IMG/VR virus record: IMGVR_UViG_3300042465_000293
Span: 1 to 64,000 of that record
Source of the DNA: a virus
Reading direction: 5' to 3' (one strand)
DNA length: 64,000 bases
Part shown: one piece after another, positions 14,247 to 51,589 of the stretch
Layout of the letters: each line of letters starts with the position of its first letter
Position numbering within the stretch: the first letter of the stretch is position 1
The notes under the pieces: model-generated
What the model was told of the DNA's origin: nothing
What the model saw: the letters and a program-made list of their open reading frames with translations, nothing else
The model's database searches: none
Program-made: the position numbers and the translations under genes

Positions 14247-14444
14247 TTAAGCGCGTCTGTTCCACAGGCGCACTGCTTCGTCACGTGTACGCCCCATGCA
14301 CTCGATAGGTTTGAGCAACGGCTTGCCCCCATCTTTGCACCAGTGCAGTACCGATACAGAGAACACACCCGATGTCGAGTTGCGTTCACGTATTTCTACT
14401 TCGTGCCCACCACAGAATGGGCACGGTTTCATCTCATTGCTCAT
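14247..14444 (-). CDS. Lar-like zinc-ribbon protein
   Basis: The 65-residue protein starts MSNEMKPCPFCGGHEVEI and ends with RTRDEAVRLWNRRA. The CPFCGG opening and the E/D-A-V-x-x-W-N-R-R ending are hallmarks of the Lar (restriction alleviation) zinc-ribbon family found in many phages. The middle Cys residues (WCKDGG, ECMG) could complete the site. True Lar reduces type I restriction in Rac and related prophages. Most short family members are uncharacterised, so an anti-restriction role is only possible. Confidence 0.7.
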   Translation of the reverse strand: MSNEMKPCPFCGGHEVEIRERNSTSGVFSVSVLHWCKDGGKPLLKPIECMGRTRDEAVRLWNRRA

Positions 14445-15679
14445 GACCAGTCCTCCACGTGTACATACTTGCCCACATCAGGCACAGCATTCTTGTTACC
14501 TACGATGCACCACAACACAGGGCATGCCCACTGACCCCACGAGCCACCGAGATAGCCGTCAGTCAACACCACCACAGCTTGCGGCTTCACACCATGCGCT
14601 GTCATGTACTCAGGCACACACTCCACGGTCGTACCACCACCGCCTTCGGGCTTGGTCGAGCCGATGATGTTCTCCACCTCGGCACCCACGTACTTCTCAT
14701 CAGCGCACACCTCGGTGTCCCAATACAAGAGCCGCACAGTCTCAGGTCGTACCTGATCACAGATACCCTTGACCTCGCCCAAGAACTTGGACAACTCACG
14801 CCCACCGATGGAGCCCGATGTGTCGATGGCAATGACCAACTCACCCACCTGTTCGCTCACACCCGATGGCATGTAATAGCCCGATGACACGAACCTACGG
14901 TTGGGCCGCCGCCATGTTGAGTAGTCGCTACCCTGACATGTTGTGGAGATGAACTCACGCAGTGCTTCACGCCAGTCGATCTTGGTCTGCAACAAGTCAT
15001 CGAACATACGATCACCACCCGAGCCGAGCTTGCCTGCCGCCAGTGCGCCCTGACGGATTGCTTCGTCAAGATCACGTGCTAACTGTTTACCCTGCTCAGG
15101 GGTCATGTCCTGCGCCCCCTCCCAATCGTGATCATCGAGACCAGTGCCCGATGTGCCTGTGCCACCCGAGCCATTGCCTTGCCCGTCACCGTCACCACCC
15201 GTGCCGTCACCGTCACCTGACCCGGAATCGCCTTGCTCATCCTTGAGTAACTTGTACACCTGTGCGCTGTCCATGCCACGGTATTTGGCATCACACAGTC
15301 CCACCTTGGGCATGACTGCAAACCCATCGGTGTTGTCATCGCTCAGCTTGATGTTGATCACGTAGTCGCATGCCATGTTCGCAAGCTGTGGGTTGTCATC
15401 GTATAGGTGACGCCACGTTGTGAGGTGACGATACAGTTTGTGGTAACACTCGTGCAACACGAGGAACCTAAGCTCAGCGTCGGTCAGGGTCTCGATGAAC
15501 CCACGCCCATACATCTCATCACGCCCGTTGGTACATGCGGTGCGCACCTTGTCGTCCACGACACGTGAGCCGATCATGAGTACACCCGCCAGTGCTACAT
15601 ACTTGGGCGAGCCCATGATGTCCACCACCGCTTTGCTTAGTCGTTGTTCCGCAGTCAATTGTTTTCCAATCATTAACAT
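14441..15679 (-). CDS. VWA protein with HExxH metallopeptidase-like N-terminus (DUF2201 type)
   Basis: The protein has 412 residues from the ATG at 15679, behind AAGGAGAACAAC. The N-terminal domain carries HECYH at residues 76-80 and a further His at about 85, matching the metallopeptidase-like N-domain of DUF2201 proteins. A Gly/Asp/Ser-rich linker (about 150-180) leads to a C-terminal VWA-like domain with the metal-ion site DTSGS at 286-290 and a later VVVLTDGY. Such proteins work with MoxR AAA+ ATPases, as in RavA-ViaA and CobS-CobT-like pairs. The partner ATPase is immediately upstream (15690-16784). Confidence 0.85.
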   Translation of the reverse strand: MLMIGKQLTAEQRLSKAVVDIMGSPKYVALAGVLMIGSRVVDDKVRTACTNGRDEMYGRGFIETLTDAELRFLVLHECYHKLYRHLTTWRHLYDDNPQLANMACDYVINIKLSDDNTDGFAVMPKVGLCDAKYRGMDSAQVYKLLKDEQGDSGSGDGDGTGGDGDGQGNGSGGTGTSGTGLDDHDWEGAQDMTPEQGKQLARDLDEAIRQGALAAGKLGSGGDRMFDDLLQTKIDWREALREFISTTCQGSDYSTWRRPNRRFVSSGYYMPSGVSEQVGELVIAIDTSGSIGGRELSKFLGEVKGICDQVRPETVRLLYWDTEVCADEKYVGAEVENIIGSTKPEGGGGTTVECVPEYMTAHGVKPQAVVVLTDGYLGGSWGQWACPVLWCIVGNKNAVPDVGKYVHVEDWS

Positions 15680-15689
15680 GTTGTTCTCC

Positions 15690-16784
15690 TTACTTCTTGT
15701 CAGCGGCAAACATGTAGTTGTTTGCCATAGCCCATGCCGTGAACTTCTTGTTGGTCATGACCACAGACTGCTTGGCATACTTGGGGTTGCGCACACCGTT
15801 GGCGAACATACCCTGTGCCTCTTTGTCAAGGCGCACCATGTAGTCCATCCACGCATCAATCCAATCACGGTCGATCACAGACAATGAGCGATACACCACC
15901 ATACATACAGCCGCCGCGCTGTCAGGCACCTTGGCATTCATCGGGTCTTTCTTGATTGATTCGAGCGAGGGCAACTGATCAGCCAACTTCACGAACGCCA
16001 TCAAGTCCATGGCACCGCGTTCACCGATAGTGCCCATCAGTAAAGCTGTCATAGTTTGATCGTCTACACCATGGCGGCCCTTGAGCCAATCAGATGCGGC
16101 TTCGAGTGAACGAGGCGTGACGAACGCAGTGCGCTGTTGCTTGGGGTGATAGATGTACGGATTCTGTTCGGGGTCTTTGACATCCTCGAACGAGTGGAAC
16201 AACTGAGGGTTGTCCTTGCACCATCCAAGCAATGTGTGATCGACACCGTTGTTGACACCCCACTCAATCCATTCCATGTTAGACGGCTTACGCGCTGTGA
16301 CCACAGTCATGCGGTTACGTGCATGGGGAGGGAGCAGGTCGCCCACACCCTCTGCCCCGAGGTTGGTCGTGGCAAATCTAATAGACTTGTCTGTTAACGT
16401 GTAACCACCCATCTTGCCTTCGAGCAAGAGCCTGAGCATGGCGTTCTTCACGGCAGGGTTGGCCTTGCCGTACTCGTCAACCATGAGGATGATGTCTTTC
16501 CCTAAGTGCAGACCGAGTTCTTCGTTGGTCACGTAGCGTACGTACCCTTGCTCGTCAATGGTCTGCAACTGAGGGATGGTGATGTCGCCCAAGTCTTTGG
16601 TCGTGCAGTCAAAGTAGCACATGATGTGATTCGGCAGTGCCTTGCCCAAGGTCTTGAGCAGGGATGATTTGCCTGTGCCCATGTGACCTTGCACGAGGAT
16701 GGTGCGCTTGTTGCCACCGATACGGATGGCAGTCTCGATTTGGTCGAGGCCGAGAGAGTACATTGCGATTGCTTGATTAGCCAT
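15690..16784 (-). CDS. MoxR-family AAA+ ATPase
   Basis: This 364-residue AAA+ protein has Walker A GHMGTGKS (Lys39), Walker B IILMVDEYGKA (Asp103-Glu104), sensor 1 in RFATTNLG, and an arginine in HARNRM that fits the arginine finger. The layout matches the MoxR/CobS clade, which remodels protein partners carrying VWA domains. The VWA-metallopeptidase gene follows 10 bases downstream. A copy of the palindromic operator GTTATACGGTGTATAAC lies 42 bases upstream of the ATG, which suggests separate control from the gene before it. The substrate is unknown. Confidence 0.85.
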   Translation of the reverse strand: MANQAIAMYSLGLDQIETAIRIGGNKRTILVQGHMGTGKSSLLKTLGKALPNHIMCYFDCTTKDLGDITIPQLQTIDEQGYVRYVTNEELGLHLGKDIILMVDEYGKANPAVKNAMLRLLLEGKMGGYTLTDKSIRFATTNLGAEGVGDLLPPHARNRMTVVTARKPSNMEWIEWGVNNGVDHTLLGWCKDNPQLFHSFEDVKDPEQNPYIYHPKQQRTAFVTPRSLEAASDWLKGRHGVDDQTMTALLMGTIGERGAMDLMAFVKLADQLPSLESIKKDPMNAKVPDSAAAVCMVVYRSLSVIDRDWIDAWMDYMVRLDKEAQGMFANGVRNPKYAKQSVVMTNKKFTAWAMANNYMFAADKK

Positions 16785-16825
16785 GATATTTTCCTGTTGA
16801 GGTTTAGGTTAAGTTGTGGTTAGTT

Positions 16826-16842
16826 GTTATACGGTGTATAAC
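16826..16842. promoter_or_regulatory. Palindromic operator copy 1 (upstream of MoxR ATPase)
   Basis: GTTATACGGTGTATAAC is a 17-bp sequence with perfect 7-bp arms around a 3-base centre. It lies between the DUF3150-like gene stop (16856) and the MoxR start (16784). It is one of six near-identical copies in this window and probably binds a dimeric regulator. Confidence 0.7.
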
Positions 16843-16855
16843 TTAGAAGCCGAGC

Positions 16856-17755
16856 TTAGAAGCCCAGTGAGGGCAGGTTGTCGATAGTCTTGCGAACTTC
16901 GTTCACCTTGCGTCTTGTCTCTGCACGCAGATACGGGTCTTCACGCAGAGCATCAGGTGTTATGCCACGCATCGCTTCATCGAGGTCACGCTGTGCGGCA
17001 ATCATCACGGGGTCGCCTGTCACGTTGCATGCACCGAGCAACTCGATGATGTCCGTCACGTTTGACACGAGTGAATCGCGGAACACCTTGCGGGTCATGT
17101 CGTCAGCGTAGTCGAGGCGTTCTGACATCTTTGTCAGTGCATCGTGCGCTCTGCGCCACACGTCACCCATCGCGGCTTGTAGCTGTGTGGCGTAGTAACC
17201 CTCGTACTGAGAACGCAGGGCGTCTTCGGTCTCGTTGCCGATGCTCACACGCCAGTCACCCGCATCAGGCAGGGGCATGTAGTTCATCTTGAATCGAAAC
17301 TTAGAAGTCAAGCTGTCAGCGGATGGATACTCGTCAGCGTTGAACAAGTCACCGAGCTTGAGTTGGGCATTCTGAATCTCCCACGAGTACGCATCGAGGA
17401 ACGCTTGCACGAGGCGTTGGTATTCGTTCTGTAACGCTGTCATTTCGCTGTGATACTTGAAGTATTGTGTTGTTGGCAACAAGCGCAGACCTGTGTCAGA
17501 CCATGGCATGGTGCATGCGTAGTGCACGTTACGTGCATTGGCTGTGAACTTCTGCACCGCATCCAATTCGGCACAGTCACCGAGGAGTTTCTTGTGCACG
17601 TTGGCCACGCCCTTGTCAGCATGGTTGCTTGTGGTCACATCTTGTGAGGCACGTTTGTCGAGCTTGCGCCCTGTCCATGTGCCGATGGATAGTTCAACGA
17701 GCATTGCCGCTGTTGAGATGGATGGCACCGCTGTGCCTGTCATTGAGTTTGTCAT
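16856..17755 (-). CDS. DUF3150-like protein of the MoxR/VWA module
   Basis: This 299-residue protein is mostly helical. The stretch MLVELSIGTWTGRKLDKRAS and the later GDLFNADEYPSADSLTSKFR resemble DUF3150 proteins. From memory, those occur next to MoxR-type ATPases and CobT/VWA proteins on phages and conjugative elements. Its probable role is a third component or adaptor of the module, but no activity is known. The ATG follows AACAGGAAACTGAC. A palindromic operator lies 21 bases upstream, and a strong sigma70-type promoter sits at 17835-17863. Confidence 0.65.
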   Translation of the reverse strand: MTNSMTGTAVPSISTAAMLVELSIGTWTGRKLDKRASQDVTTSNHADKGVANVHKKLLGDCAELDAVQKFTANARNVHYACTMPWSDTGLRLLPTTQYFKYHSEMTALQNEYQRLVQAFLDAYSWEIQNAQLKLGDLFNADEYPSADSLTSKFRFKMNYMPLPDAGDWRVSIGNETEDALRSQYEGYYATQLQAAMGDVWRRAHDALTKMSERLDYADDMTRKVFRDSLVSNVTDIIELLGACNVTGDPVMIAAQRDLDEAMRGITPDALREDPYLRAETRRKVNEVRKTIDNLPSLGF

Positions 17756-24969: not shown

Positions 24970-25170
24970 ATGGCCAAATCCGTCTTTGACGTGCTCATCA
25001 TGAAACATGAGGAAGATGTAACTTCCGCAACCCAGTTCTTGGCAAACGGTGGGGCTAAAGACCTCGCTGAATACCGGGAAGTAGTAGGCAGGATTCGAGG
25101 TCTCCAGCTTGCTATTCAAACAACCAAAGACCTTTCGCGCTCTCAAATGGAAGAAGAAGATCATGAATGA
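24970..25170 (+). CDS. Small protein between portal and co-chaperonin
   Basis: The protein has 66 residues, starting 3 bases after the portal stop. The sequence (MAKSVFDVLIMKHEEDVTSA then EYREVVGRIRGLQLAIQTTK) is a helical hairpin with an acidic end. Small proteins of this kind are common after podoviral portal genes. The exact role is unknown. Confidence 0.65.
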   Translation: MAKSVFDVLIMKHEEDVTSATQFLANGGAKDLAEYREVVGRIRGLQLAIQTTKDLSRSQMEEEDHE

Positions 25171-25543
25171 TCAAGTTGAAACCGCCGTGACTGACGAAGA
25201 AGTGGAAGCCCAGCTTCCAAAACCCGTTGGGTATCGGTTGCTTGTGGCACTGCCGCAGATTGAAGAAACCATCGGTGAAATAAAACTCTTTAAACCCAAG
25301 CAGACTATGCGTGAAGAACGCATCCTGTCTACGGTTGGGTTGGTGTTGGATATGGGCGACCAAGCCTATTCTGACCCCACACGTTTCCCAAATGGCCCGT
25401 GGTGCAAGGTGGGCGACTATGTTGTTTTCGCGTCATACACAGGCACCCGTCTCAGTGTAAATGGCGTGGAGTATCGCCTGATGAATGACGACTCCATCGA
25501 GGCAGTCGTCGCCGACCCGCGTGGCGTTTCGCGTGCTGGATAA
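25163..25543 (+). CDS. GroES-like co-chaperonin (cpn10 family)
   Basis: The protein has 126 residues from the ATG at 25163, overlapping the previous stop as ATGAATGA. The core matches cpn10: GYRLLVALPQIEETIGEIKL as the first strand pair, a mobile-loop-like basic segment (FKPKQTMREERI), then STVGLVLDMG, CKVGDYVVFASYTG and a final NDDSIEAVV. Phage co-chaperonins such as T4 gp31 adapt host GroEL for folding the capsid protein. Its location between portal and scaffold suits that job. The N-terminus has an acidic extension of about 20 residues. Confidence 0.8.
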   Translation: MNDQVETAVTDEEVEAQLPKPVGYRLLVALPQIEETIGEIKLFKPKQTMREERILSTVGLVLDMGDQAYSDPTRFPNGPWCKVGDYVVFASYTGTRLSVNGVEYRLMNDDSIEAVVADPRGVSRAG

Positions 25544-41835: not shown

Positions 41836-43938
41836 ATGCCACTAAAGAAGATACTGCTCAAGCCCGGTGTAAACCGTGAGAACACGCGATACACCAACGA
41901 AGGGGGCTGGTACGAGAGCGAGAAGATTCGCTTTCGTCAAGGCACGCCCGAGAAGATCGGCGGCTGGACACGTATCTCCTCATCCACATTTCTGGGCATC
42001 TGCCGTTCCCTGTGGAACTGGGTAACCCTTGGTGGTATCAACCTGATTGGCGTTGGCACCAACCTCAAGTTCTATCTTGCAGCAGGCGGTATCTACAACG
42101 ACATCACACCGTTCCGTGATCAGGTCACATTGACCAACCCGTTTGAAACCTTTGTCGGTTCTCCGATTGTGCAGGTGACTGATGCCAACGGTGGTTACAT
42201 TGACGGCGACTTTGTGTCGTTCTACAACGCAACAGCCGTGGGTGGCCTGACCATCTTTGGTCAGTACGAAATTACGGTCACTGGAGCTACTACATACACC
42301 ATCACGGCAAGCTCAAACGCTTCGTCGAATGCTGTGGGTGGCGGAACTGTGTATGCGCTGTATCAAATCAATGTTGGCCCTGCGTATGTGGTGCCGTTGG
42401 TAGGCTGGGGTGCTGGCCCTTGGGGTGCTGGCCCTTGGGGTATTGGTGAAGCGTCCACGGACGCCATCCGTTTGTGGAGCCAACAGAACTACGGCGAAGA
42501 CCTGATCTTTGGCCCACGGGAAGGCCCAATCTACTACTGGGATGCAACGTCTGGGTACACCCCAATTACGTTCTCTGCTACGGTGGCAAACCCCACGGTG
42601 ATTACTGCCGCTGCTGAATACGCTAACGGTACGCCCCTTCGCTTTGCGCCTGACGCTGGGTCTACGATGCCTGTGGGTATTCTTCCCGGTGAGATGTACT
42701 ACGTACGCAACGCCGCAGGTTCGTCATTCAATATCTCACTGACCCCTTCAGGTGCGCTCATCCAAGTCACCGTTGCGGCTGTGGGTAACTGCCGTATCCT
42801 GTCAAACGGGTACAAGCTGGCTGACTTTGGAAGCGCAACAGACGTACCAATCGAGCAAAATTATTTGCTGGTGTCCGACATCAGCCGCTTTGTGTTTGCG
42901 TTTGGTTGCAATGACTATGGCTCAGCCACTGTTGACCCGATGCTGATTCGCTGGTCTGACCAAGAAGACCCGTTCAACTGGACACCCGCATCAACCAATC
43001 AAGCAGGCTTCTTGCGTTTGTCTCGCGGCTCTGAGATCGTCACAGCCACTCAGTCACGACAAGAAGTTTTGGTGTGGACAGATGCCGCACTGTATTCGCT
43101 TCAGTACGTGGGTGCACCGATTGTCTGGGGTGCTCAGCTTGTCGGAGAAAACATCTCTATCGTGGGTCAGAACGCCGTGTCGTACGCCACGGGCGTGGCC
43201 TATTGGATGGGCAAAGACAAGTTTTACAAATACGATGGCCGCACGCAAACGCTCAACTGCGACTTGCGCCGCTACGTGTTTGAGGACATCAACACCTCGC
43301 AGTACGCGCAGGTGTGCTCGGGCACCAACGAAGGCTTCAACGAAGTCTGGTGGTTCTACTGTTCTGCTAACTCAACTGACATTGACAAGTACGTGGTCTA
43401 CAACTACATGGAAAACGTGTGGTACTACGGCAATCTGGCCCGCACCGCATGGCTGGATTCTGGCCTGCGTGACTACCCGTTGGCTGCTACGTACTACAAC
43501 AACCTTGTGAACCACGAAGATGGGTTGGACGACAACGCCACGGCCACCACGCTGCCAATCGTATCGTCTATTACTTCTGCACAGTTTGATTTGGACGATG
43601 GCCACAACTTCATGTTTGTGTGGCGTGTCTTGCCTGACGTTACGTTTGAGGGTTCTACGGCAACCCCGCCCAGCGCTACGATGTACCTGCTGCCGTTGAA
43701 AAATTCTGGCTCTGGGTATTCGGTCAACTCAGCGACGGACGCTAATCACTCTGTGGCCAACGATAGTTTTGCGACCGTCACACGGATTGCCACCTTGCCG
43801 GTAGAAGAGTTCACCGGGCAGATTTTTACTCGGGTGCGCGGTCGTCAGATGTCCATTAAGTTTGAGTCCACCGAATTGGGTGTGAATTGGCAGTTGGGCT
43901 CACCTCGTATTGACATGCGTTCGGATGGCCGTCGATGA
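41836..43938 (+). CDS. Tail hub protein, P22 gp10-like (packaged DNA stabilisation)
   Basis: The protein has 700 residues. The start (MPLKKILLKPGVNRENTRYT, then GGWYESEKIRFRQGTPEKIG) and the repeated beta units (WSQQNYGEDLIFGPREGPIY, DQEDPFNWTPASTNQAGFLR) match the Phage_stabilise family. P22 gp10 closes the portal channel and anchors tail spikes. A Trp/Gly-rich repeat (GWGAGPWGAGPWGIG) lies at about 195-210. It supports a podovirus-type tail. A gene for gp26-type needle was not seen. Confidence 0.8.
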   Translation: MPLKKILLKPGVNRENTRYTNEGGWYESEKIRFRQGTPEKIGGWTRISSSTFLGICRSLWNWVTLGGINLIGVGTNLKFYLAAGGIYNDITPFRDQVTLTNPFETFVGSPIVQVTDANGGYIDGDFVSFYNATAVGGLTIFGQYEITVTGATTYTITASSNASSNAVGGGTVYALYQINVGPAYVVPLVGWGAGPWGAGPWGIGEASTDAIRLWSQQNYGEDLIFGPREGPIYYWDATSGYTPITFSATVANPTVITAAAEYANGTPLRFAPDAGSTMPVGILPGEMYYVRNAAGSSFNISLTPSGALIQVTVAAVGNCRILSNGYKLADFGSATDVPIEQNYLLVSDISRFVFAFGCNDYGSATVDPMLIRWSDQEDPFNWTPASTNQAGFLRLSRGSEIVTATQSRQEVLVWTDAALYSLQYVGAPIVWGAQLVGENISIVGQNAVSYATGVAYWMGKDKFYKYDGRTQTLNCDLRRYVFEDINTSQYAQVCSGTNEGFNEVWWFYCSANSTDIDKYVVYNYMENVWYYGNLARTAWLDSGLRDYPLAATYYNNLVNHEDGLDDNATATTLPIVSSITSAQFDLDDGHNFMFVWRVLPDVTFEGSTATPPSATMYLLPLKNSGSGYSVNSATDANHSVANDSFATVTRIATLPVEEFTGQIFTRVRGRQMSIKFESTELGVNWQLGSPRIDMRSDGRR

Positions 43939-44279
43939 TTGTCACTTCTGAGTTTGAACTTCAGCGCATCTCGCCGCCTGCACTGCCGCAAGCGCCGGAG
44001 GACTACCAGCGCCAATATCAAGATCAGTTGAACAGCGTGCTGCGCCTGTACTTTGTACGGCTACAAAGCATTGTGGGGCAGTTGGAGACCGGGGGCGGCA
44101 TCATCCCGCCAACGACCGTGTACACGGTGGCAGCACTACCCAGCGCCGCAACTTCTGGCATGGGGGCACGCGCATTTGTGTCTGATGCCAACGCAACCAC
44201 TTTTGCATCCACTGTGGCCGGTGGCGGGGCAAATAAGGTACCTGTGTACTCGGATGGGGTCAACTGGAAGATCGGGTAG
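43935..44279 (+). CDS. Small tail-associated protein
   Basis: The protein has 114 residues, starting at an ATGA overlap. The first half has a helix (YQRQYQDQLNSVLRLYFVRL) typical of fibre attachment or needle-like proteins. The C-terminal half (GARAFVSDANATTFASTVAG then VPVYSDGVNWKIG) is a small beta domain I recall from the ends of many fibre-like proteins. It probably caps or joins the tail. It is the last tail gene before the ACP gene. Confidence 0.65.
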   Translation: MIVTSEFELQRISPPALPQAPEDYQRQYQDQLNSVLRLYFVRLQSIVGQLETGGGIIPPTTVYTVAALPSAATSGMGARAFVSDANATTFASTVAGGGANKVPVYSDGVNWKIG

Positions 44280-44356: not shown

Positions 44357-44638
44357 ATGAACGAACTTGAACTTTTTAACCGGTTAGCGCGTCACGTGCG
44401 ACCCGCGTTTACCAACTACGTACCCATCGAAACGATGGACATCCCCTTCCCCGAAACGGGTCTGGACAGCATGGATGGGCTGATGATGCTCATCTACTTG
44501 GAAGACATCTACGGTCTGGACGATGAAATTGCCAAGCATTTCACGTTTGGCTCCCCTGCTGAACTGATGGTGCAGGTGCATCAGCATAAGACTCAAGAAC
44601 CCGAGTCGGTTGACGCTGCGATGGAGTTGGTGCAATGA
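44357..44638 (+). CDS. Acyl carrier protein
   Basis: The 93-residue protein has the ACP core: ETGLDSMDGLMMLIYLEDIY, in which D-S-M corresponds to the D-S-L site and Ser38 is the likely phosphopantetheine attachment point. It is followed by helix III/IV features (FTFGSPAELMVQVHQ). The protein is acidic. The gene has its own leader of 78 bases after the tail gene and a weak promoter-like pair (TTGATT-19-TACTAT at 44300-44330). It ends on the ketoacyl synthase start (ATGA). It would need a host phosphopantetheinyl transferase, since none was found here. Confidence 0.8.
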   Translation: MNELELFNRLARHVRPAFTNYVPIETMDIPFPETGLDSMDGLMMLIYLEDIYGLDDEIAKHFTFGSPAELMVQVHQHKTQEPESVDAAMELVQ

Positions 44639-45753
44639 TCGCTCTGACCCACACCCGAACCATATCCACAGAAGCCACAGAACTGCTTGAGGACATTTCT
44701 TTTCCTCAGAAGGTACATTGGCTACCCGAGACCTACGCTCGCGTCTCTACGGGGCTGTTTTACCCCCCACATCGGCTTGCTGAGAAGGTGCTTGACCCCA
44801 CCTTGATTCAACTCTTGCGGGATACCCCATCCAAAAAGACGGCGTTTATCTTGGCGGCGGGCAACGCCCACTTCGCTGGCGTACCGGCAAACCCCCGCAA
44901 CTCCCGTCTGTCATATCAGTACAAACCCTTACCTTTGACATTGACGCAGGTCTACGCCAGCCGTATCGCCCAAGCGTGCGGGGCGTCTGATCACATCGTG
45001 ACCGACTCTACGGCCTGCGCATCCAGCCTCAAGGCACTCATGGACGTGCAGACCCTGCTGAACTTCTACGGGTTTACCCGAGTAGTCGTCTTGTCCGTGG
45101 AGGACGCCGTATCAAATCTGGTACTGGAATTCTTTGGCGAGACCAAGGCATGCCTGACCGCTAAGCGGGAAGCTGAGGAGGGCATCGTTCCGTCTGCTTT
45201 TGACTCCAAGAACGGTAGCTTTCACGTTGGGCAAGGCGCGGTCTTTGCCGTTTTTGAGTCTGGTGAGGGGATGGCCTTGTCAGGGTTTGCACCTCTGGCC
45301 AAACTCATGGGGGCGTACACCGCCAGCGAGCCATGCACCAACGCTCTGGGTCAACTCGATTCTGGGCTCGGTTTTGTCAAAGCAGCGCAAGGGGCAATTG
45401 AAGTTGCGGGTATATCCGCCAACGATATACGCATCGTCAAGACTCACGGGACTGGGACATTATCCAATAACGTGTCAGAACGTAATGCGCTATCACAAAT
45501 TCTCCCGGATGGCTTCGTTGCCACTTCCTATAAACCTGTCATTGGGCATACAATGGGAGCCAGTGGGCTGCTGGAAACTGCGCTCTTGGTTGACTCTTTG
45601 CGGGAAGGAACCATGCCAGCGATTAAAAACCGAACCGAAGAAGACCATGTGTTCTTATCGGAGCCCCTACCGACCCCTGAAGGATTGGTGCTTAGCCTCG
45701 CGGCGGGCATGGGGAATGTTTATTCAGCCGCAGTGCTGTCCGTAGGAGCCTGA
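44635..45753 (+). CDS. Beta-ketoacyl-ACP synthase (KAS I/II-type)
   Basis: This 372-residue thiolase-fold condensing enzyme keeps the full active site of the FabB/FabF class. The nucleophile Cys128 is in DSTACASSLKAL, His271 in KTHGTGT, and Lys300 and His305 in YKPVIGHTMGASG. It would join a malonyl unit to an acyl chain carried on ACP. It is slightly shorter than FabF (about 410), mainly at the N-terminus. It overlaps the ACP gene by four bases, so the two are co-translated. No ketoreductase, dehydratase or malonyl transferase was seen, so it either uses host partners or serves a special acylation. Confidence 0.88.
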   Translation: MIALTHTRTISTEATELLEDISFPQKVHWLPETYARVSTGLFYPPHRLAEKVLDPTLIQLLRDTPSKKTAFILAAGNAHFAGVPANPRNSRLSYQYKPLPLTLTQVYASRIAQACGASDHIVTDSTACASSLKALMDVQTLLNFYGFTRVVVLSVEDAVSNLVLEFFGETKACLTAKREAEEGIVPSAFDSKNGSFHVGQGAVFAVFESGEGMALSGFAPLAKLMGAYTASEPCTNALGQLDSGLGFVKAAQGAIEVAGISANDIRIVKTHGTGTLSNNVSERNALSQILPDGFVATSYKPVIGHTMGASGLLETALLVDSLREGTMPAIKNRTEEDHVFLSEPLPTPEGLVLSLAAGMGNVYSAAVLSVGA

Positions 45754-45755
45754 CC

Positions 45756-46211
45756 ATGCAGCTTGTAGATAGCAACAAAGAAGAATTAGACACCTCCACC
45801 ATCATTGCACGTGCTGTGGGGGAAGCCAAAGATGCAGGTCAGTTACCTAAAAACGTGACCCTGCAAGCGGCTATCCTGTCGGTTATTGCCGAAGGCTCCA
45901 TGCCCAACACCAAAGTTGAGCAAATTGGCAACACTGTGTTCATGTCGCATTACAGCGAAGACGGTAAAGAAGTTGCCATGCGTGCGTTTAACGCGGATAC
46001 TGCGCGGAACTATTTGGAAAGCTCCATCAAGTACGTCAAAGCATTGCCGGAACAGGGAGTTGAGCGCATGACCAGCGATTTCTCCGACAAGAAGATTTTG
46101 CAGTTGTTCAACACAATCGCTCGCCGCCCCGAACTCCAAGAGTGGGGCATGCAGGTGTATAAATTGAACACAGGTGCCATGCGTGCATACGTTGTATTGA
46201 AGGGTGCGTAA
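45756..46211 (+). CDS. Conserved protein downstream of the ketoacyl synthase
   Basis: The 151-residue alpha/beta protein has SVIAEGSMPNTKVEQIGNTV and FMSHYSEDGKEVAMRAFNAD, then a helix (TARNYLESSIKYVKALPEQG) and a last strand (AMRAYVVLKGA). The IGNTxF...RAxNADTxxNYxES pattern is one I recall from other marine and freshwater phage proteins of unknown role. The alternation of strands and helices would fit an acyltransferase such as GNAT, but no catalytic signature is clear. It starts 2 bases after the synthase stop and abuts the 1792-residue protein. Confidence 0.6.
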   Translation: MQLVDSNKEELDTSTIIARAVGEAKDAGQLPKNVTLQAAILSVIAEGSMPNTKVEQIGNTVFMSHYSEDGKEVAMRAFNADTARNYLESSIKYVKALPEQGVERMTSDFSDKKILQLFNTIARRPELQEWGMQVYKLNTGAMRAYVVLKGA

Positions 46212-49200
46212 TGGGTGCAGTTGCTGATTTTGTTGGGGATGTAATCGGCGCAGTTGGCGATGCCATCTCATCGGTAGGTAAAGCCGTTTTTAAACTGGCA
46301 GATTTTGTCGTTGACAAGATCATCGACCCTGTTCTTTCAACAGTCAGCAACGTCATTGAGGCAGCACTTGATAATCCACTAAAAACAATTGCACAGGTTG
46401 CCCTCGTTGCCACAGGTAACGCATGGGCGCTCCCACTTGTCGAAGGTGCAGACGTTGCCGCAAAAGGTGGTGATCTGGGCGATGTGTTGAAAGCCACAGC
46501 CAAGGCGTATGTAGCCCAAGAGATCGGTTCCTATGTTGGCGGCAAAGCCACTACCGCAGTAGCCAAAGCTACTGACAGTGCCATTGCAGGTCAGATATTT
46601 GGTAGTGGTGCAGCCGCTGCGTCTGTTGCAGTTGTAACCAATCAAGACCCCCTCAAAGCGTTTATCTCTGGCGGTGTGGGTGCGGCAACCGGCGCAGTGC
46701 TGGGTAAAGTTGATGAGATGACAGGGGGTAAATTTAAAACGCTACCTCCTACTGCACAGGCGGCTATCCAGTCAGCCATCACAGCGCAGATTACAAACAA
46801 CCCCAACCCCACTGCTGCCATCATGGGCAGCATCATCTCTGCTTCTGGCATTGTGACGGACGCAATTAAGTCGTTTGATCCTGATGGTACAAAACTTGAC
46901 GCCACTCAGCGCACCATCTTGACCGATGTGCTCATGGGTACAGCCACTGCCGCGCTGACTGGTGGTAAAGCGTCCAACGTCATTCAAGCCGCCATGATGA
47001 AAGCAGGCGCTAAAGCTCTGGGCGACATGACCACGAGCGCGTTTAAAACAGCTACCGGTGAAACTACAAAGGCTTACGCAGCCGCTGACGCAGCCGCAGG
47101 TAAAGTAGATGCAAACATCGAAGCGCAAAAAGCCGCAGCATGGGAGTACAACAATAACGCCACGCAACTGCAAGAGCGGATAGCAGAACAAAACAGACTT
47201 AGCGACGCATACAACGCCGCAGTCAAAGCGTTTGACGCCGACCCAACTGAAGAAAACGGTAAAGCCGCAAACGCTGCAATTACCAAGTACAACGAGTACG
47301 TCACAGCGTTGAACAAAGATTACAACGAGACGTACAAACCACGCCTTGATAAATATGGCGGGGAGTTAGACACATTGAAGCAGCAACATGCGGTGTTGAC
47401 TGGCGACTACGAAAAGGCTATGCAAGCGTTTGGCACCAAGACAGATAAATTGTCTGATGCGCTTGACCCCATCTACCGTACAAGTAATCGTGCGTTTGTG
47501 GAGGCAATGGATACAAACTTCAATGCTGACCAATACCGCAAACTTAACGGACTTGGCGCGGATGTTGATGTCTACGATCACTACTTGTCCAAGGGCCAAT
47601 TTGAAGGTGCGCCAACAAACAACAAAGCCGCTGAGACAGTAATTGCAACAGAACGTACACGACTGATTACTCAGGCGCTGGAAAGCAAAGGCGTGACTCT
47701 GGCCACGGCTGACCCTGCCATGGTGTCCAAGATGCTGGACAACATCGACAAGAACTACGGCAACAATGTTTCAGCACTTAAAGCTGCGTCTATTCAAGAT
47801 GTGATCAACGGCAACATCACGTCGGTCAATCAGTTGGTAAGTGACCAACGAAACGGTGTTCTAAGAGTTGAAGTTGCCGGTAGTTCTTACGGTGAATGGC
47901 AAAAGCCTTCGTCCGACAGATTTACATTACCTGCGGGTATGAAACTGGCTTCGTATGCAGCGTTTGATAGTGGTCGAGCCAGTCTGGTATACGACAACAA
48001 AGGAGCCCCCGTATGGATCGAAGCCGACCCCAGCACTGCTGTGGCAACGTGGAATCCAGCGACCGGCAACTATGAACTCCCGCCTGTCACGATAATAGGC
48101 AAGAAGCCTACTGAGCAAGAAAAAATTATTGCCATGGCCGAATTGGGCGGCTCGGCTGCTGTCAACGGTGTCGTGAGTGATGCCATGATCAACGCCGCCA
48201 AAACGGTCGTTGGATGGGCACAGCAGACGGGTAGTTCCACACTGATCAACACCACAGCCAACGTGCTGAAAGCTGGTGGTGGTTTCCTTGAATCTATTAA
48301 CGGTATATCTGTGTTGTTTGGCTCCGCACCAAAAGACACACAGTTGGGCAAGTTTTCAAACGCTCTGAATGATCTTGGCAAAGCAAGTAATACTGCGGAG
48401 TACCAAGCTGCCGTCAAAAACATGAACGCTATGATTGGCGATGCCAAAGGCGTTGGCGGCACGCTCAAAGCAATCTACGGTGCATTCAAGTCTGCCCCAC
48501 TGCAATTCGTTGCGGAGTATGTCGGCGTTGAAGGTATCCAAGAAATTGCACCGCTTCTTATCGGCGGTGTTGTTGCCTCGGGTGCCAAAGGTGCTGCGGC
48601 TGCGTTGAAGTACGGCCAAGCGGTTGCCGCCAGAATGGGTAGTACCGCAGGTATGACCGCAGGCATCATGACTGATATTGTTGAGTCGGCTGGCGGTGCC
48701 GCGACCGGTGCGTATAACGAAGCGTACAAGACTGCAATTAAAGTGGGTAAGTCTCCAGCAGATGCCGACAAGATTGCCATGGAGATTGCGCAACGCCAAG
48801 CGTTTGTTGCTGCGGCTACTACTGCCGTGTCGATGGGTCTTGGTGGTGCAGCCCTTGAGAAAGCTCTTTTAGGTAGGTCTGGTACAGGACTCGGCGATGC
48901 GTTGCAAACCCTTGGCGACTTTGCCAAGACCGGCACAAAGATAGCCATCAAAGAAGGTACTTCCGAAGCTGGCGAGGAAGGTATTACGCAAGCTGCACTG
49001 GAAGGTCAACTGTACAAACTTGACCAGACCCGTGATGTTGCCAAAGAAATCACGCAGGCTGCGGCGTTTGGTTTTATTGCAGGTGGCCCTATTGCTGGTG
49101 GTGCGTATGCCGCAAGTCGTACCGGAGATGTCATCTCCAACGCTGTTCAAGGTAACCCACAGATCGCCAATATTCTGGAGACCAACAAGGGTAATCCTGC

Positions 49201-51589
49201 CGCCGCTGCTACTGCACTGGCCAACTTTGGTGTCACGGATAACACCATCAAGTCCAACTTGATGAACACCATCGACAATGCCAACTACACCAGCAGTGAC
49301 GAAGCTGCTACGGCACTGGCTAAGCGTGAGGACTACACATACTCTGATGCAGATGTCAAAGCACTGACAGGTCAAGGCACCGATCTTACGTTGGCAAGTC
49401 GTACCGAGGCGTATGTTGACCCACGAGTGTTTGACCTTGCTGAAGTTAAAGCCGCTGCCGCTGCTGAAGGCTATACGCTCACAGATGAAGAAGCTGCCAA
49501 ACTGGTTGGTCAGAAAGATGAAGCTGCGGCGGTTACTGCGGCACGTGCCGAATTTGACCCCAAGGCAACAACCTACGACGAGGCAAAAGGATTCCTGACC
49601 TCTCAAGGCTACACACCTACTGCGGATGAAATCAAACAGTTTGTTGGCAACACTGCGGAAACAAAAGCGCAAACAGACGCAGCGGCCTATGTAAACCCAC
49701 GTCAGGTTACCGAAACCGAAGCACGCAAGTACCTTACTGATCTTGGGTACAAACCTACTGATGCCGAGGTCAAACGATTTGTCGGTCAGGTCAATGAAGC
49801 TGATCAAGCCAAAGCTATTAGCGAATATGCCGACCCCCGTATGGTCGATGAAGGTGAAGTCAAGGCTGCGTATGCTGCACTGGGATTAAATAAGCCTACC
49901 GCTGACGACATTAAGAAACTGATGGGTCAGTACGAGGAGACTGGACTTACAGCCAAAGCAACCGACTACTTACCAACGGCTCGATTAAATTCGATCATGT
50001 CACAGCTTGACGCGATGGCTGCTGGCGGCGTCAGCCAAGAAGCGTTGGATGCAATCAATCTGGTTAAGAAAGATTTGGCCAGCCAGATCAAAGACCTCGG
50101 CTTCAAGATGGACGAGCAGACTGGTAAGTTGACCGATGCACTCACCACGACTGAAACCAATATCTTGACAAAGATTGCCGCCAACGAGAAGGCTGGCATG
50201 ACTCGGGATGTGGCTACACAAAAAGCGATTGGTGATGTTGCTACTGAACTTGGCACTACAAAAGATGACATCCTCAAACGAATTGGTACTACCGAGACCA
50301 ACCTGACCAAGACCATCGACACTCTGAGTAAAGATGTTGGTGCGTTGAGTACCAAACTTGGCGATGTTGAGACCAACATCCTGACCAAGATGGCCGAGTA
50401 CGAGAAGGCAGGTATTGGCCGTGATGAGGCTTTATCTAAAGCGATTGATGCCGTTGCCGCTGACCTTGGCACCACCAAAGCAGACATCCTGACAAAGATT
50501 GGCAAGACTGAGGAAACTCTTAAAGCCGATGTTGGTAAAGTTGAAACAAACCTTGGCACCAAGATTGCCGAGTCTGAAGCAGCCGTTCTTAAAGCGTTGG
50601 GTTTGACCGAGACAAAGCTGAGCGAAGAAATCTCAGGGGTCAAAGAAGACTTGACGACAAAGATTGGTGACGTTGAAACCAATGTGCTGTCGCGCATGGC
50701 CGAATACGAGAAGGCTGGTATTGGACGCGATGAAGCCTTGGGTAAAGCAATCGACGACGTGGCTGCCGATCTTGGCACCACACGCACTGACATCCTTACA
50801 CAGATTGGTAAGACTGAAGCCAACATCAAAGCTGATCTGGCCAGCGCCAAGACTGAATTAAAGACGGACATTGGCACCGCCAAGACTGAACTAAAAGGCG
50901 ACATTGCTACTACCAGAAAAGAAATTCTGGACAGAGCGGCTGAGTACGAAAAGGCTGGTATTGCACGCGACCAAGCACTTGCACTGGCACAAGCGGACAT
51001 GGCCAAGACTTTGGGTCAAGATACTCAGAAAGCCACGCAGTCTGATCTGGATGCAGTGATCAAGATGCTGGAGACTCAAGGTGCATACGACCAGCAGTAC
51101 GACTACAACGGCGACAAGGTAATTGACCAAAAGGACAAAGTTGCGATTGAGACCTACCTCAAGTCACAGGAAACAGCTTACAAGCCAGACACCGACGACC
51201 CGTTCAAGTACGACCCCGCCGCAGGGTCTAAGTGGGCACGCACAGGTGTGTTCAAGACTGTGGCAGACGAAGCTGAGGCAACCCGTAAAGCGCAAGCTGA
51301 CGAAGCCGAGCGCACTCGCCAAGCCCAAGCTGCCGCTGCACTCAAGACCCAGCGCATGGGCAATCTCAATACCCTGACCAGCATGCTGGGTCAGGCAGAA
51401 GACACCAAAGGCCAGCAAGTTACGGTAAAAGCTGCCGATCCCGCAAAGATTGGGTACATTTATGACTGGAACAGCATTTTCGCCAATCCATCGCAGGAAA
51501 AGTTGTTTGCCTCTCCGTTTGCACAGGGCGGCATGGTGAACGGTTCTGAAGATGTAAACGAAGAATTGCTCAAGATATTGAAAGGTTAA
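46211..51589 (+). CDS. Giant ejection-type internal virion protein with repeats and EF-hand-like loop
   Basis: This 1792-residue protein opens with an amphipathic Val/Ala/Gly-rich N-terminus (VADFVGDVIGAVGDAISSVG) suited to membrane insertion. Between about 1050 and 1240 are four units of about 45 residues (consensus Y-V-D-P-R...E-V/A-K-A...G-Y-x-x-T...E...V-G-Q). A long coiled coil follows (about 1260-1610), with repeated I-L-T-K-I/M-A-E-Y-E-K-A-G-I-G-R-D units. At about 1631-1642 is DYNGDKVIDQKD, a calcium-binding EF-hand/dockerin-like loop. It is likely ejected into the host or forms a channel. Confidence 0.7.
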   Translation: MGAVADFVGDVIGAVGDAISSVGKAVFKLADFVVDKIIDPVLSTVSNVIEAALDNPLKTIAQVALVATGNAWALPLVEGADVAAKGGDLGDVLKATAKAYVAQEIGSYVGGKATTAVAKATDSAIAGQIFGSGAAAASVAVVTNQDPLKAFISGGVGAATGAVLGKVDEMTGGKFKTLPPTAQAAIQSAITAQITNNPNPTAAIMGSIISASGIVTDAIKSFDPDGTKLDATQRTILTDVLMGTATAALTGGKASNVIQAAMMKAGAKALGDMTTSAFKTATGETTKAYAAADAAAGKVDANIEAQKAAAWEYNNNATQLQERIAEQNRLSDAYNAAVKAFDADPTEENGKAANAAITKYNEYVTALNKDYNETYKPRLDKYGGELDTLKQQHAVLTGDYEKAMQAFGTKTDKLSDALDPIYRTSNRAFVEAMDTNFNADQYRKLNGLGADVDVYDHYLSKGQFEGAPTNNKAAETVIATERTRLITQALESKGVTLATADPAMVSKMLDNIDKNYGNNVSALKAASIQDVINGNITSVNQLVSDQRNGVLRVEVAGSSYGEWQKPSSDRFTLPAGMKLASYAAFDSGRASLVYDNKGAPVWIEADPSTAVATWNPATGNYELPPVTIIGKKPTEQEKIIAMAELGGSAAVNGVVSDAMINAAKTVVGWAQQTGSSTLINTTANVLKAGGGFLESINGISVLFGSAPKDTQLGKFSNALNDLGKASNTAEYQAAVKNMNAMIGDAKGVGGTLKAIYGAFKSAPLQFVAEYVGVEGIQEIAPLLIGGVVASGAKGAAAALKYGQAVAARMGSTAGMTAGIMTDIVESAGGAATGAYNEAYKTAIKVGKSPADADKIAMEIAQRQAFVAAATTAVSMGLGGAALEKALLGRSGTGLGDALQTLGDFAKTGTKIAIKEGTSEAGEEGITQAALEGQLYKLDQTRDVAKEITQAAAFGFIAGGPIAGGAYAASRTGDVISNAVQGNPQIANILETNKGNPAAAATALANFGVTDNTIKSNLMNTIDNANYTSSDEAATALAKREDYTYSDADVKALTGQGTDLTLASRTEAYVDPRVFDLAEVKAAAAAEGYTLTDEEAAKLVGQKDEAAAVTAARAEFDPKATTYDEAKGFLTSQGYTPTADEIKQFVGNTAETKAQTDAAAYVNPRQVTETEARKYLTDLGYKPTDAEVKRFVGQVNEADQAKAISEYADPRMVDEGEVKAAYAALGLNKPTADDIKKLMGQYEETGLTAKATDYLPTARLNSIMSQLDAMAAGGVSQEALDAINLVKKDLASQIKDLGFKMDEQTGKLTDALTTTETNILTKIAANEKAGMTRDVATQKAIGDVATELGTTKDDILKRIGTTETNLTKTIDTLSKDVGALSTKLGDVETNILTKMAEYEKAGIGRDEALSKAIDAVAADLGTTKADILTKIGKTEETLKADVGKVETNLGTKIAESEAAVLKALGLTETKLSEEISGVKEDLTTKIGDVETNVLSRMAEYEKAGIGRDEALGKAIDDVAADLGTTRTDILTQIGKTEANIKADLASAKTELKTDIGTAKTELKGDIATTRKEILDRAAEYEKAGIARDQALALAQADMAKTLGQDTQKATQSDLDAVIKMLETQGAYDQQYDYNGDKVIDQKDKVAIETYLKSQETAYKPDTDDPFKYDPAAGSKWARTGVFKTVADEAEATRKAQADEAERTRQAQAAAALKTQRMGNLNTLTSMLGQAEDTKGQQVTVKAADPAKIGYIYDWNSIFANPSQEKLFASPFAQGGMVNGSEDVNEELLKILKG

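Follow-up and report, generated by a model that had tools for sequence, protein, structure and literature searches.

We analysed a window of 64,000 nucleotides, part of a viral contig of 67,240 bases (IMG/VR record IMGVR_UViG_3300042465_000293), in which two overlapping genes encode an acyl carrier protein (ACP) and a beta-ketoacyl synthase (KAS). The start of the KAS gene overlaps the stop of the ACP gene by 4 nt (ATGA), and the pair lies in the late operon of this genome, directly before the genes for ejection-type proteins, as an earlier note on this DNA had described. The gene for the 114-aa protein upstream of the pair is fast-evolving, with a sequence that varies among relatives, and the order KAS, p151, giant protein recurs in many of them (Table 1).

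Table 1. Genes and sites at the ACP-KAS locus, with positions in the window.
Feature	Position	Strand	Basis or remark
P22 gp10-like tail stabilisation protein (marks the upstream side of the late site)	41836..43938	+	MW202545 homologue named 'phage stabilization protein'
114-aa protein between the gp10-like gene and ACP	43935..44279	+	Same position in many relatives
Acyl carrier protein (ACP), 93 aa	44357..44638	+	Family profile against solved ACPs; invariant Asp37 and Ser38
4'-phosphopantetheine site of the ACP, Ser38 within D37-S38-M39-D40			Predicted from sequence
Beta-ketoacyl synthase (KAS), thiolase-fold condensing enzyme, 372 aa	44635..45753	+	Pfam, profile, fold and catalytic residues
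p151, predicted GNAT-fold protein	45756..46211	+	AlphaFold and Foldseek; follows the pair at the late site, not an obligate neighbour
Giant ejection-type protein (marks the downstream side of the late site)	46211..51589	+	Putative role, from position

The condensing enzyme and its active site

The KAS of the window belongs to the beta-ketoacyl synthase thiolase superfamily. It scored above the curated Pfam cut-off for both domains (PF02801, E=4.9e-16; PF00109, E=3.3e-6; bit scores of 59.2 and 27.3 against a cut-off of 20.8), a phmmer search of the PDB retrieved KasA and FabF at E about 1e-18, and the profile of the KAS family matched FabF at E=1e-26. The AlphaFold model (pLDDT 92) was matched by Foldseek to FabF, KasA and the actinorhodin KS at E about 1e-22 and TM about 0.79, with type II polyketide ketosynthases (actinorhodin KS and AntD) among the top fold matches. 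Residues Cys128, His271, Lys300 and His305 align with Cys163, His303, Lys335 and His340 of E. coli FabF and are invariant in all 128 relatives compared. The intact active site claimed in the earlier note was thus borne out, and the Cys and His residues, whose placement it had set as a check, occupy the catalytic positions of KAS enzymes.

The phage enzyme shares with FabF (KAS II) the thiolase fold, the aligned Cys, two His and Lys, and a C-terminal Glu after the second His, but the identity across the structure match is only ~18-20%. Approximately residues 11-42 of FabF are missing family-wide, and the GFGG gating loop that holds Phe400 in FabF is replaced by A-G-M-G-N, in which G358, M359, G360 and N361 are invariant (128/128). 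With G-M-G-N in the gating loop of all 128 relatives, normal elongation is not assured. The phage KAS is moreover paired with a divergent ACP of its own and forms a clade separate from the sampled cellular KAS. Both the lack of the GFGG/Phe400 loop and a position outside the seven cellular KAS in the tree speak against a FabF orthologue. The KAS, with 61-63% identity in distant relatives, is better conserved than the structural proteins encoded beside it (gp10-like and giant, about 30%).

The acyl carrier protein

Taken alone, the ACP of the window gave no Pfam match and only weak matches to ACPs in the PDB. The top PDB matches of a family profile built from 50 sequences, however, were all solved ACPs (best E=4.7e-6), and PF00550 was matched by 4 out of 10 family members at E up to 1, the best at 0.0021. 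Asp37 and Ser38 are invariant in 189 of 189 relatives and Asp40 is kept in 187 of them, so that both the description of Ser38 in a D-S-M site and the conservation of this serine, proposed beforehand as a check, held. Invariant catalytic residues rule out a degenerate KAS or ACP, and the pair is probably catalytically competent, as far as can be judged from these residues.

Glu41 of E. coli AcpP is a general contact for partner enzymes. The equivalent position is acidic in none of the 189 phage ACPs and always hydrophobic, whereas those equivalent to Asp35, Asp38, Glu48 and Asp56 remain acidic. Compared with AcpP, the ACP of bacterial fatty-acid synthesis, the phage protein has in common the D-S-L/M-D phosphopantetheine site, which is an AcpS-type motif, an acidic character and conserved acidic residues at the Glu48 and Asp56 positions; it differs in the hydrophobic residue at the Glu41 position, a longer C-terminus and a weak Pfam score. 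These features fit a carrier that would still be modifiable by host AcpS and whose partner face has probably been retuned; as the Glu41-equivalent is never acidic, host fatty-acid enzymes may not accept it.

The window KAS matches phrog_35856 (2e-39) and the window ACP phrog_28189 (9e-5). Both carry the PHROG label 'unknown function', and the library output for the two records no function, pairing or context.

Pairing, selection and loss

The pairing is obligate: of 224 distinct KAS loci, all those for which upstream sequence exists carry the ACP gene directly upstream (loci here and below are counted as distinct sequences, many of them close relatives of one another, and were located with KAS or p151 seeds). 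The overlap is exactly 4 nt in 120 of the 126 ACP-KAS pairs measured. Among close relatives dN/dS was 0.05-0.11 for KAS and 0.07-0.10 for ACP, with 0.21 for one more distant ACP pair; these values indicate that strong purifying selection acts on the pair.

ACP was found without KAS in four loci (L106, L107, L163 and L271), and p151 without either gene in about 20. In L125 (1685-1789) and L127 a KAS remnant of 35 residues, in which the second His is altered and the reading frame is closed, stands just before p151, so that the pair has been lost in that lineage. Together with the four ACP-only loci, this loss indicates that the pair is not always needed. In L106 (5715-5993) and L163 (4262-4540) the ACP gene directly precedes p151 and KAS is absent from the whole contig.

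Two genome positions

The pair occupies two positions. At the late site, in 201 of the 224 distinct loci, it lies after the gp10-like gene and ahead of the ejection genes, so that the synteny with ejection genes which the earlier note had wanted checked is kept in most relatives; the order gp10-ACP-KAS-p151 was read in 181 distinct loci and ACP-KAS-p151-giant protein in about 190. An additional gene for a 218-aa protein is located between KAS and p151 in one locus (L317:9094-9750). In the other 23 distinct loci the pair is part of the replication module (early site), in the order SNF2 helicase-ACP-KAS-HTH, where the HTH-like protein has 102 aa. After it, in those loci that were read, come a DUF3310 protein, a DUF2800 nuclease and an Enc34-type ssDNA-binding protein. 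In two genomes, G037 and G051, the pair is at the replication site while p151 has a separate location without it. The sole KAS of G037 (30,956 bases) is at this site, and ~17 kb separate it from p151 and the ejection genes, which are on the opposite strand with no KAS adjoining. The KAS of L316 is closest to the replication-site type and yet stands at the late site, and the KAS tree requires one or two switches between sites.

The replication-site loci, together with these two genomes, indicate that the pair is a self-contained two-gene unit, and its ability to change module separates its function from the virion module. A virion or ejection component would always be encoded with the ejection module; the 23 distinct loci in the replication module depart from this and weaken a strict virion function deduced from position.

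The GNAT-fold neighbour p151

No sequence family library searched gave a match to p151. In its AlphaFold model (pLDDT 94.8) the elements follow the GNAT order, and Foldseek matches in the PDB are GNATs (E about 2e-4; TM 0.4-0.6 for the matches listed), with the LuxI-type AHL synthase TofI at rank 12; viral fold matches include an 'internal virion protein A' and a DUF2824 protein. The Q/RxxGxG/A pyrophosphate loop of GNATs is not visible in p151, which has FNADTARN between strand 72-79 and helix 83-99. The invariant residues S6, E46, G58-N59-T60, N79 and D81 are shared by phages that have the pair and phages that lack it, and thus give no sign of an adaptation of p151 to the phage ACP, so that a p151 specialised for this carrier was rejected.

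Like P22 gp14 (DUF2824) and T7 gp13, p151 is encoded just before the ejection genes, but no sequence similarity to either was found (hhalign E of 0.48 and 0.35, with single-sequence templates of low sensitivity), and homology by sequence was not retained. Judged from the predicted fold, p151 is a possible acyltransferase or assembly protein, and a predicted GNAT-fold protein just before the ejection genes is a core trait of these phages, to which the pair is an optional addition.

Distribution and origin of the pair

A scan of viral contigs gave 537 KAS matches and a later scan 519, overlapping the first; the carriers are hundreds of uncultured water-borne phages. Among annotated phages a near-full-length relative was found only in MW202545, which derives from a metagenome of Manatee Spring. 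This phage (L016) is described as a member of the Siphoviridae, yet encodes a P22 gp10-like stabilisation protein in a podovirus-like gene order, and some of its product names (e.g. 'coronavirus S2 glycoprotein') look like over-read weak matches.

A pattern-based scan of 84,980 species genomes returned a single close match to the KAS, on L167, a contig of a Balneolaceae metagenome-assembled genome on which the genes around the match are phage-like (the pair, p151 and long ejection-type genes); the next matches reached 25-41% over part of the protein. In a tree with a small cellular sample of seven KAS, the phage enzymes form one clade (support 100/100) on a long stem from the cellular ones. 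The search against phage and bacterial sets and the KAS tree, both suggested in the earlier note, set the phage family apart from the cellular KAS sampled, and a recent one-off host capture, named there as a refutation, does not hold in view of the number of viral contigs and the synteny in relatives.

Discussion

Fatty-acid genes of viruses are as a rule recorded one at a time, as auxiliary metabolic genes whose origin is unclear. Our results describe a large phage family in which a carrier and a condensing enzyme descend together as a single coupled unit that is able to change genome module. With such a family one can test what acyl product a phage requires in the course of infection. Earlier papers list viral fabF and acpP among auxiliary metabolic genes (PMC8224337, PMC7029224, PMC10653327); like the phage KAS and ACP these genes are virus-borne, and they are annotated as fatty-acid elongation enzymes. 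In prophages they follow the host-like order fabG-acpP-fabF (PMC8224337), whereas an obligate phage ACP-KAS pair at two genome positions does not appear in the portions of the three papers considered. The open-licence literature searched yielded nothing beyond host-like prophage genes and isolated entries for fabF, and no report of a coupled phage ACP-KAS family. A close cellular relative, as expected of a host-derived auxiliary metabolic gene, was not found: the phage-like L167 was the only close match in the pattern-based scan of species genomes.

Pfam scans of nearly all called proteins of the window found no other fatty-acid gene, in line with what the earlier note had stated, and an AcpS-type phosphopantetheinyl transferase (PF01648) was not detected in 12 phage genomes. 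Host enzymes must therefore supply the remaining steps, and the question is narrowed to one carrier and one enzyme. In the reading we favour, to which we would give about an even chance of being right, ACP and KAS form a dedicated, matched pair, coupled by translation, that works in the cytoplasm of the infected cell, and not as part of the virion, together with the phosphopantetheinyl transferase and the fatty-acid enzymes of the host. The host transferase would place the phosphopantetheine arm on Ser38 of the ACP, and host enzymes would charge it with malonyl and acyl groups. An acyl group would pass to Cys128 of the phage KAS, where His271, His305 and Lys300 would bring about decarboxylative condensation on the phage ACP. 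The cycle may be completed by host reductases and a dehydratase. The outcome would be an altered or additional acyl-ACP pool during infection, with an acyl chain that presumably serves host or phage lipid needs. Several features count against this cytoplasmic action, namely (i) the lack of an acidic residue at the Glu41 position, (ii) the G-M-G-N loop, (iii) the location of most loci beside p151 and the ejection genes and (iv) the four ACP-only loci and the lineage that has lost the pair. The suggestion in the earlier note that the pair remodels host lipids late in infection fits the data better than a virion function does, although it need not imply that the pair acts late.

The same note had proposed a virion task such as fatty acylation of an ejection protein. 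The replication-module loci speak against a specific virion function, but an ejection protein might still be acylated through p151, which is predicted to have a GNAT acyltransferase fold. HlyC-type toxin acyltransferases and LuxI-type synthases are GNAT-like and use acyl-ACP; by analogy, KAS would build a specific acyl chain on the phage ACP and p151 would transfer the acyl group to an ejection protein. We consider this rather unlikely. The confident fold prediction for p151, with TofI among its matches, and the recurrent order ACP-KAS-p151-giant protein are consistent with it, as are the nested gene content of the sample (p151 alone, ACP with p151, or ACP and KAS with p151) and the retention of p151 in both early-site genomes where it could be found. 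Nevertheless, the pair resides in the replication module in 23 loci, the invariant residues of p151 do not differ with the presence of the pair, the pyrophosphate-binding motif is not visible, and p151 belongs to the core genes of these phages, so that its co-occurrence with the pair is expected by descent. An extended version, unlikely in our estimation, is a phage-specific acyl assembly line, orthogonal to the fatty-acid system of the host, from which the GNAT-fold protein would attach a specific acyl group to ejection proteins; if true, it would lead to a lipid-modified DNA-ejection machinery.

The missing partner reductase and dehydratase genes could also be read as the sign of a brake on the host, in which the pair would drain holo-ACP precursors, malonyl groups or acyl chains and slow host lipid synthesis, for instance by malonyl-ACP decarboxylation or by dead-end products. 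The altered gating loop and the altered helix II of the ACP hint that the pair is no plain fatty-acid booster. The condensation residues are, however, all invariant, and plain drainage would not need a matched ACP every time; we regard such a brake as quite unlikely. The modified active-site loop, the actinorhodin KS and AntD among the top fold matches, and the fact that a first condensation needs only ACP and KAS would suit a short product of beta-keto or polyketide-like type, a compound or a signal, released by a phage or host enzyme. Such a product is improbable, as no acyltransferase, ketoreductase, cyclase or thioesterase was recognised in the module and the ranking of fold matches among KAS enzymes is not diagnostic. 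Finally, acpP-fabF is a standard bacterial neighbourhood, and in host-like form (fabG-acpP-fabF) it is listed in predicted Rhodobacteraceae prophages (PMC8224337). That the phage genes are such a bacterial pair, captured recently from a host or misplaced by assembly or at a prophage boundary, is very improbable and was rejected on the hundreds of viral contigs with KAS, the single supported clade on its long stem away from the seven cellular KAS, the one close match among species genomes being a contig that reads as phage, and the purifying selection on the pair.

Elsewhere in the window, on the minus strand (14441-17755), genes for an AAA ATPase, a DUF2201 metallopeptidase/VWA-like protein and a DUF3150 protein stand in a row and resemble MoxR-VWA pairs. 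One further protein of the window matches the chaperonin Cpn10 (E=1.9e-5); by comparison with MW202545, it is probably the product of the ORF at about 25109-25543, in the head module.
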